Shown here: piece by piece, positions 50,730 through 52,575 of the stretch | Layout: each line of letters starts with the position of its first letter | How positions within the stretch are numbered: position 1 is the stretch's first letter | From: Methylibium sp. | GTDB taxonomy: Bacteria > Pseudomonadota > Gammaproteobacteria > Burkholderiales > Burkholderiaceae_C | Direction: 5' to 3' | Length of the DNA: 64,000 nt | NCBI RefSeq assembly: GCF_013817345.1 | Contig: NZ_JACDCW010000004.1 | Span: 1 to 64,000 of the forward strand | The notes under the pieces: model-generated | Told to the model about the DNA's origin: nothing | Databases searched by the model: none | Seen by the model: the letters and a program-made list of their open reading frames with translations, nothing else | Translations under genes and position numbers: made by a program

Positions 50730-50999
50730 ATGCCCCGCGTCGAGTTCACGCCGCAGCTCAAGCGATTCACCGAAACACCGCGCATCGATGTGCCGGCCGC
50801 GACCTTGCGCGAGGCGCTCGACGCCGCCTTCGAGCGCAACCCGCGTCTGCGCGGCTACGTGCTCGACGATCAGGGTCATGTGCGCGCCAACGTCGTCATC
50901 TACATCGACGGGCAGGCCAGCCGGGACCGGCTGGCGCAGGGCGATCCGCTGCGGCCCGACAGCAGCGTCTATGTGCTACAGGCGCTGTCCGGGGGCTAG
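50730..50999 (+). CDS. MoaD/ThiS-family beta-grasp protein ending in GG
   Basis: MPRVEFTPQLKRFTETPRIDVPAATLREALDAAFERNPRLRGYVLDDQGHVRANVVIYIDGQ...SSVYVLQALSGG. Confidence 0.88.
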   Translation: MPRVEFTPQLKRFTETPRIDVPAATLREALDAAFERNPRLRGYVLDDQGHVRANVVIYIDGQASRDRLAQGDPLRPDSSVYVLQALSGG

Positions 51000-51035
51000 A
51001 GTCGGATCGCTCGCTTTGCAACGGGGGAGGTTTGG

Positions 51036-52124
51036 ATGAGCACCAATGCCGTCAACGATCGCGCCTGGGTGGCCACGCGCAAGGGCTTGTTCGAGCTGAG
51101 CCGCCACGGCGCCGTCTGGCGCATCGAGCGCGTCAGTTTCCTCGGCGAGCCCGTCACGGCCGTGCTGCCGCCGGATGGGCAGGGCCGCATGCTGGCGGCG
51201 CTCAACCTGGGGCACTTCGGCGTCAAGGTGCATGCCTCGGCCGACAGCGGCGCGAGCTGGACGGAAGTGGCGGCGCCGGCCTATCCGCCGCAGCCCGAAG
51301 ACGCGGCCGGACCGGCCTGGAAAACCGTGCTGATCTGGGTGCTGGAGCAGGCGCACGGCACCGTCTGGGCCGGCACCTTGCCGGGCGGCCTGTTCCGCTC
51401 GGCCGACTTCGGCCGCTCCTGGCAACTGGTCGAGCCGCTGTGGCAGCAGCCGGGGCGGCTCGAGTGGTTCGGTGGCGGCTACGACGTGCCGGGCATCCAT
51501 TCGATCTGCCCGCATCCGCAGCGCGAGCGCGAGCTGCTGATCGGCGTGAGCTGCGGCGGCGTGTGGGTGACGCGCGACGACGGCGCGAGCTGGGCGCTGC
51601 AGGCGCGCGGCATGAGCGCGGCCTACATGCCGCCGGAGCGCGCTGCCGACGAGAACATTCAGGACGCGCACCGCATCGCGCGCTGCGACGGTAGCCCCGA
51701 CACGTTGTGGTGCCAGCATCACAACGGCATGTGGAGCAGCAGCGACAACGCCGCAAGCTGGCAGCCCATCACCGAAGTGCCGGTGTCGAGTTTCGGCTTC
51801 GCGGTCGCCGCGCACCCACGCGATCCGCTCACGGCCTGGTTCGCGCCGGCGCAGGCCGACGAGCGGCGCGTGCCTTCGGGCGGCGCGATGGTGGTCAACC
51901 GCACGCGCGATGGCGGCGCCAGCTTCGAGACCTTGCGCGAGGGCCTGCCGCAGCGCGATTGCTACGACCTGGTCTATCGCCACGGCCTGGCGGTGGCCGA
52001 CGATGGCGTCAACTTGCTGATGGGCAGCACCACCGGCAACCTCTGGTCGAGCAGCGATGCGGGCGAGCTCTGGCATTCGGTTTCCGCGACGCTGCCGCCG
52101 ATACACGCAGTGTGCTTCGGCTGA
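51036..52124 (+). CDS. BNR/Asp-box repeat beta-propeller protein
   Basis: Six Asp-box-like motifs: SADSGASW, SADFGRSW, TRDDGASW, SSDNAASW, TRDGGASF, SSDAGELW. Confidence 0.9.
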   Translation: MSTNAVNDRAWVATRKGLFELSRHGAVWRIERVSFLGEPVTAVLPPDGQGRMLAALNLGHFGVKVHASADSGASWTEVAAPAYPPQPEDAAGPAWKTVLIWVLEQAHGTVWAGTLPGGLFRSADFGRSWQLVEPLWQQPGRLEWFGGGYDVPGIHSICPHPQRERELLIGVSCGGVWVTRDDGASWALQARGMSAAYMPPERAADENIQDAHRIARCDGSPDTLWCQHHNGMWSSSDNAASWQPITEVPVSSFGFAVAAHPRDPLTAWFAPAQADERRVPSGGAMVVNRTRDGGASFETLREGLPQRDCYDLVYRHGLAVADDGVNLLMGSTTGNLWSSSDAGELWHSVSATLPPIHAVCFG

Positions 52125-52235: not shown

Positions 52236-52390
52236 ATGCACATCCTCCTCGTCGATGACCACGCGCTGTTCCGCGAAGGCATGGAACTCGTGCTCAGCGC
52301 ATCGACCCCGGCATTCGCGCAAGCCACGCGGGCACGGTGGACGCGGGCGTTCGCCTGCTGCAGCAGGCGCCCTTGCCGCAACTCGTGCTG
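52236..52390 (+). pseudogene. Frameshifted, truncated response regulator receiver domain
   Basis: MHILLVDDHALFREGMELVL in one frame, then after a ~1-nt loss IDPGIRASHAGTVDAGVRLLQQAPLPQLVL in another; stops where the phospho-Asp motif would follow. Confidence 0.75.
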
Positions 52391-52575
52391 CCGAGGAACA
52401 CGACCGCCATCGCTGCGGCACAGGCCGCGTAGGACCCCCAGCCGACGCCCGGCACGATGAGTAGCCCGAGGATCCCGGTGGCGGCGATCGCCATCCGGGT
52501 GCCGACCTTCACCTGCTGCGCCAGCGTCCGAATGCGCTCGACCCGGCAGCGCTCCTCCGCCTGTGACTGGAGCAT
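52294..52575 (-). pseudogene. Small membrane ORF whose 3' part runs antisense into the response-regulator relic
   Basis: MLQSQAEERCRVERIRTLAQQVKVGTRMAIAATGILGLLIVPGVGWGSYAACAAAMAVVFLG... then the antisense of the REC fragment from ~52390. Confidence 0.4.

Follow-up and report, generated by a model that had tools for sequence, protein, structure and literature searches.

The window analysed here is a stretch of 64,000 nucleotides from Methylibium sp. (contig NZ_JACDCW010000004.1). Two of its genes, both on the forward strand and separated by a gap of 36 nt, encode a small ubiquitin-like protein (Ubl) and a beta-propeller. The Asp-boxes of the propeller were found with the pattern [ST]x[DN]x[GA]xx[WF], which matches exactly six times in its 362 aa. 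The features of the locus are:

50730..50999, + strand: ThiS/MoaD-type ubiquitin-like (sulfur-carrier-like) protein (Ubl), 89 aa (ORF, Pfam, AlphaFold2/Foldseek)
50991..50996, + strand: Gly-Gly codons at the C-terminus of the Ubl (ALSGG end; sequence, exact C-terminus in 110/117 complete homologues)
51023..51030, + strand: Shine-Dalgarno-like GGGGGAGG ahead of the propeller start (read from the sequence)
51036..52124, + strand: seven-bladed Asp-box beta-propeller, 362 aa, signal peptide not evident (ORF, AlphaFold2, Foldseek 3b7f)
51237..51260, + strand: Asp-box 1, SADSGASW, residue 68 (motif scan)
51399..51422, + strand: Asp-box 2, SADFGRSW, residue 122 (motif scan)
51498..51500, + strand: His155, invariant, predicted on the central-channel face (conservation; placement inferred from strand pattern)
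51570..51593, + strand: Asp-box 3, TRDDGASW, residue 179 (motif scan)
51669..51671, + strand: His212, invariant, predicted on the central-channel face (conservation; placement inferred from strand pattern)
51714..51722, + strand: Gln227 and His229 of the QxHxG motif, predicted on the central-channel face (conservation; placement inferred from strand pattern)
51738..51761, + strand: Asp-box 4, SSDNAASW, residue 235 (motif scan)
51903..51926, + strand: Asp-box 5, TRDGGASF, residue 290 (motif scan)
51978..51980, + strand: Arg315, 98-100% conserved, predicted on the central-channel face (conservation; placement inferred from strand pattern)
52050..52073, + strand: Asp-box 6, SSDAGELW, residue 339 (motif scan)

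Upstream of the two genes a divergent MFS transporter is encoded; downstream, the first gene that can be recognised is a pseudouridine synthase on the opposite strand, so the pair forms its own two-gene unit. Promoter and terminator scans gave results at chance level. The start of a frame at 52236-52460 resembles a response regulator receiver (MHILLVDDHALFREGMELVL), but the similarity is lost further on; the frame has no Pfam match and is perhaps a decayed gene.

Fold and family of the two proteins

The Ubl ends in VLQALSGG followed directly by the stop codon. It matches the ThiS family (Pfam: PF02597) with 23.8 bits against a cut-off of 22.5. Its AlphaFold2 model has a pLDDT of 87.6, and the nearest structures found by Foldseek are SAMP1, a Thermus MoaD-related protein, CysO and the BexX/CysO complex, with MoaD, Urm1 and the Ahp1-Urm1 complex also among the matches. 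SAMP1 is the top match both in Foldseek (3po0, TM 0.81) and in NCBIfam (SAMP1 equivalog NF041918), where the score of 31.7 bits stays below the curated cut-off of 60. Because the profile match is above cut-off and SAMP1, MoaD and CysO are recovered with the predicted beta-grasp fold, the protein qualifies as a member of the ThiS/MoaD ubiquitin-like superfamily. A first-pass annotation had described an 89-aa beta-grasp protein ending in QALSGG, followed 36 nt further on the same strand by a protein with six Asp-boxes; the reading frames, the ThiS profile, Foldseek and the motif scan bear out both descriptions.

With MoaD the Ubl shares the fold family and the Gly-Gly, but moaD and moaE lie elsewhere in the genome, about 2 kb apart on another contig (C128), and moaE was not recognised beside the pair. 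It does not meet the definition of a MoaD, encoded with or partnering MoaE, as the moaE of the genome adjoins another MoaD; in 25 pair-bearing genomes the moaE positions also differ from those of the pair. Neither is it the ThiS of thiamine synthesis, as no NCBIfam match to the ThiS equivalog was obtained and a separate ThiS is encoded on C162. That the Ubl is the only MoaD or ThiS of the genome is thus ruled out. No moaE, E1 or thi gene adjoins the pair in the window, and ThiF-type E1 enzymes are encoded on C100, C143 and C184. A further ThiS-type protein with a Gly-Gly end (...WPPIAGG), distinct from both the MoaD and the ThiS of this genome, is found on C105.

The propeller model has a pLDDT of 92.5, and the nearest structure is 3b7f (TM 0.89), the Reut_B4987 protein of Ralstonia eutropha. 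Sequence comparison places both in the same family (E 1e-47), although they are only 32% identical. Full-length homology, repeated Asp-boxes and the seven-bladed fold together satisfy membership of this 3b7f Asp-box family. The motifs of 3b7f (GTSPQGLFRS) place it in a clade with a downstream Ubl; it is described as having 7 blades and a function 'Not known' (PMC2716378). Far weaker Foldseek matches are GH74 enzymes, YCF48 bound to a D1 peptide and sortilin with peptide ligands. According to their PDB titles, YCF48 and sortilin, likewise Asp-box propellers, bind peptides from partner proteins, but with a TM of only about 0.35-0.55 to our model a common function is not shown.

The residues T14, K16, H155, H212, Q227, H229 and R315 are kept in 97-100% of the propellers with a linked Ubl and in 89-100% of those without. 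W101, H155, H212, Q227, H229 and R315 are predicted to lie on a single central-channel face, a placement inferred from strand order without a check against coordinates.

Two variants of the propeller were seen in other loci. A gammaproteobacterial clade (L023, L024, L027-L030, L032, L033) carries a Lys/Arg-rich N-terminal extension of 25-40 residues (25-42% K+R), possibly for nucleic-acid or membrane binding. In L021 (508-2670) a Ser/Thr protein kinase domain stands in frame, N-terminal to a paired propeller.

Recurrence of the pair across phyla

Propeller and Ubl were searched separately in 274 genomes sampled from the same class. The Ubl stands alongside in 25 of the 28 readable full-length propeller loci, and 21 of 24 Ubl matches adjoin a propeller. 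In the close relatives of the window the Ubl is encoded upstream, in more distant ones downstream. Annotated plasmid records of Mitsuaria, Pseudomonas aeruginosa and Burkholderia contain the pair as well, labelled 'MoaD/ThiS family protein' beside 'exo-alpha-sialidase' or 'hypothetical protein', as do records of Cupriavidus, Nonomuraea and Arthrobacter. In a sample of Actinomycetota (the phylum of Lentzea, 247 genomes) the pair was present in 22 of the best 30 loci.

A scan of 84,980 species genomes gave 80 loci, most with the Ubl directly downstream. Their titles name Gammaproteobacteria, Actinomycetota, Chloroflexota, Acidobacteriota, Planctomycetota, Verrucomicrobiota, Eremiobacterota, Omnitrophota, Nitrospira, Myxococcota and others; many of the loci come from metagenome-assembled genomes, and individual phylum labels may be wrong. 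The two genes are neighbours in about a dozen bacterial phyla and look like a widespread two-part system.

We tallied 148 propellers, 145 of them with informative surroundings. A homologous Ubl on the same strand was found at 118 of the 145: directly downstream in 98, downstream with one gene (yqeC-like) between in six, and upstream in 14, leaving 27 without one. Every one of the 118 Ubl matches in the tallied loci is at the partner position. At a density of about 4 ThiS-type genes per 4.1 Mb, chance would place a same-strand Ubl neighbour within 1 kb at ~0.1% of loci, so the pairing is far above chance. The tallied loci are related by descent and the count is not a probability, yet both gene orders persist with few changes: the four arrangement states need nine changes on the propeller tree, and presence or absence seven. 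When the Ubl is downstream, the commonest spacing is -4, an ATGA overlap of 4 nt, and most others are +2 to +11. Propellers without a linked Ubl occur in Streptomyces, Rhodobacterales and some others.

The first-pass annotation had proposed an uncharacterised two-gene system and had named a neighbourhood survey as the test that could refute it, either by a failure to recur outside close relatives or by an association of the Ubl with moaE/moeB in most genomes. The proposal passes on both counts: the two genes are found together in many phyla, in either order, and most genomes do not have moaE next to the Ubl.

The plasmid records name the two proteins separately, as if a sialidase and a stray MoaD were unrelated neighbours. 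Linkage across phyla in both orders speaks against such a coincidence, which we find scarcely credible and which the linkage survey rules out. The sialidase label itself is unsupported, as a FRIP-like motif is found in 0 of the 148 propellers and, for the window propeller, Pfam gave nothing of the sialidase family beyond short BNR repeats. The window propeller shares Asp-boxes and the propeller fold with GH33 sialidases, but has no FRIP motif, no sialidase Pfam match and no evident signal peptide, and this reading was rejected.

Patristic distances of the two proteins correlate over 117 pairs (mirror-tree r=0.91; permutation maximum 0.21), and limiting the comparison to distant pairs leaves r=0.74. 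Much of this correlation can come from vertical descent common to both; it shows that Ubl and propeller have not been reshuffled. Natural fusions of the two were not seen in these loci.

In L061 (964-2892) one open frame of 643 aa combines an E1-like domain with a Ubl matching the same profile, and no propeller is nearby. The small downstream ORF of a haloarchaeal propeller (L073) was rejected as a partner, as it resembles a membrane protein and not a Ubl.

The Gly-Gly tail, E1 enzymes and third genes

Exact C-terminal Gly-Gly is present in 110 of 117 complete Ubls, while in six it is followed by 2-5 residues (L080, L118, L128, L144, L149, L184), which would need trimming before activation, and in one it is absent. 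This last Ubl, of Nonomuraea (L067, 5060-5374), stands beside a propeller and ends in LPALA, and no Gly-Gly was found in its other frames either. Since the Ubls are only about 20-30% (about 25%) identical to that of the window, the near-universal tail is the pattern expected of an E1-activated protein. E1 was found in 25 of 25 pair-bearing gammaproteobacterial genomes, that is, in all those tested. A conserved exact Gly-Gly and an E1 in the same genomes are what is asked of an E1-activated sulfur carrier or Ubl, and both are present; adenylation and the thiocarboxylate remain inferred.

A purely non-covalent role, with the Ubl as subunit or stabiliser of the propeller, would equally predict tight linkage and co-diversification, and the Nonomuraea Ubl without Gly-Gly would fit it. 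TmoB, a non-covalent subunit of toluene monooxygenase, is a precedent. However, an exact Gly-Gly kept at about 25% identity is hard to explain without activation, and we regard this role as improbable.

The tail and the fold would also suit a covalent modifier of the SAMP/Urm1 kind with the propeller as main conjugation target or adaptor. SAMP1 and Urm1, both with modifier and carrier roles, are among the nearest folds, an Ahp1-Urm1 complex is among the Foldseek matches, and the six Ubls with residues after the Gly-Gly resemble processed precursors. Against this, E2-like proteins and JAB peptidases were not recognised among the recurrent neighbour clusters, in a comparison without dedicated profiles, and no propeller Lys or Cys is conserved specifically in paired members, Lys16 being invariant in unpaired ones too. 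A specific acceptor Lys or Cys was sought, and none separates the two groups. Residues that do differ, e.g. G283, T332 and W129, may only reflect that many unpaired members are from Streptomyces. Conjugation to the propeller stays possible but is, in our estimate, unlikely.

Third genes recur beside the pair in some lineages. In four gammaproteobacterial loci (L075-L078) propeller and Ubl are separated by a further gene. It is YqeC in L077 (TIGR03172, above cut-off), and the intervening genes of L075, L076 and L078 are homologous to it; L035 has a similar ORF by inspection and L037 a matching spacing. The pair is followed by a MoeB-type E1-rhodanese in L075 and L076 (MoeB equivalog match) and by MoaA in L078. 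MoeA is nearby in all four, and the same loci encode a formate-dehydrogenase-like protein, a TorD-like chaperone and a Tup-like permease. In two genomes (G155, G266) an E1 is encoded on the strand of the propeller, about 1.9 kb beyond it, and in Omnitrophota (L081, L120) an E1-rhodanese (Pfam ThiF and Rhodanese) is divergently adjacent. E1 thus stands beside the pair in two phyla. The absence of moaE, moeB and thiG noted in the first-pass annotation holds for the window; in a minority of relatives E1 (moeB/moeZ), yqeC, moeA or moaA adjoins the pair, and in that lineage a link to Mo/W-enzyme biology is possible.

Such loci could point to a side branch of Mo/W (or Se) cofactor metabolism, with the Ubl as a specialised MoaD and the propeller as a maturation factor of Mo/W enzymes. 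The order propeller-yqeC-Ubl, then moeB and moeA or moaA, is found in several Gammaproteobacteria with formate dehydrogenase and tungstate-transporter-type genes nearby, and moaE is present in 25/25 pair-bearing genomes against 200/274 of the class sample (hypergeometric ~2.5e-4). No correction for genome size or descent was applied to this enrichment, though, the molybdenum context is limited to one small clade with most pairs having no such gene nearby, and the genome of the window has its separate moaD and moaE. We consider a cofactor role for the pair unlikely.

A different set of neighbours, an ECF-type sigma factor with DUF6596 together with YCII-domain and/or VOC/3-dmu-9_3-mt proteins, was found in 19 of 91 loci, often on the same strand as the pair and within 3 kb. 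The combination of DUF6596 sigma factor, YCII and VOC stands beside the pair in several phyla (e.g. L106, L127, L140, L154). Because of this combination the sigma factors may be identified as ECF42-type, which is an identification by neighbours only and not a group assignment. According to a review (PMC8999054), a YCII protein is a conserved neighbour of ECF42 sigma factors, and one of these factors in P. putida affects oxidative-stress sensitivity.

A possible sulfur carrier with a propeller partner

The best supported reading is a dedicated Ubl with a propeller as its partner. Among the closest known parallels are the MoeZ-activated carriers of the CysO type (Mycobacterium CysO; BexX/CysO), which have the same beta-grasp fold (TM 0.84-0.86) and the exact Gly-Gly, and an E1-rhodanese is linked in some relatives of the window pair. 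They differ in that no cysteine synthase or JAB was recognised with the window pair, whose partner is an Asp-box propeller.

We propose that Ubl and propeller are one functional unit in which an E1-activated thiocarboxylate carrier docks on the propeller and delivers sulfur to an acceptor, a proposal whose chances we see as evenly balanced. A MoeB/MoeZ-type E1, either a housekeeping enzyme or one encoded beside the pair, would adenylate the C-terminal Gly of the Ubl, and the tail would be converted to a thiocarboxylate. The activated tail would then dock on the cytosolic propeller, most likely on the central-channel face with the conserved His, Gln, Arg and Trp residues, which is a guess without a model of the complex. 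There the sulfur would pass to a small-molecule or protein acceptor of unknown identity. The activation half of this scheme rests on the Gly-Gly tail, the E1 links and the fold; activation, thiocarboxylate formation, docking and transfer are all inferred, with no chemistry or binding data.

Three observations count against the scheme. E1 adjoins the pair at only few loci, the Nonomuraea Ubl has no Gly-Gly, and propellers without a linked Ubl conserve the polar face equally well, which implies a core activity of the propeller that can in some cases do without a linked Ubl. These unpaired propellers could be served by a Ubl encoded elsewhere.

The gene neighbourhoods of ThiS/MoaD proteins known in 2006 (Iyer et al. 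2006, Table 1, PMC1779556) do not include this pairing, and that paper has no mention of propeller, BNR or sialidase. A paper on a BNR protein of the thiocyanate cluster (PMC5744179) does not mention a MoaD protein. In the open-licence literature we found no description of a MoaD/ThiS protein paired with a BNR, propeller, sialidase or COG4447 protein, and a prior description is not excluded. PA1356 of P. aeruginosa is presumably this propeller, by locus numbering. It is mentioned once as promoting biofilm formation in a transcriptome paper (PMC11538994), an unconfirmed claim.

Databases annotate the Ubl and the propeller as two unrelated genes. For the propeller family, which public records label as sialidase, a structure (3b7f) but no function has been available since 2007. 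The pair gives this orphan fold a partner, and simple tests become possible. More tentatively, and with somewhat less than even confidence, we suggest that the propeller may be an enzyme dedicated to accepting sulfur, or a conjugation target, which draws on the thiocarboxylated Ubl to yield a new thio-metabolite or modified protein and in some lineages belongs to an ECF42-type stress module. The defined recipients of ThiS/MoaD-type carriers are thiazole synthase, MoaE, cysteine synthase, tRNA thiolases and thiosugar enzymes. A carrier that keeps a non-canonical Asp-box propeller as its partner in many phyla points to a sulfur-transfer or Ubl pathway that has gone unrecognised.
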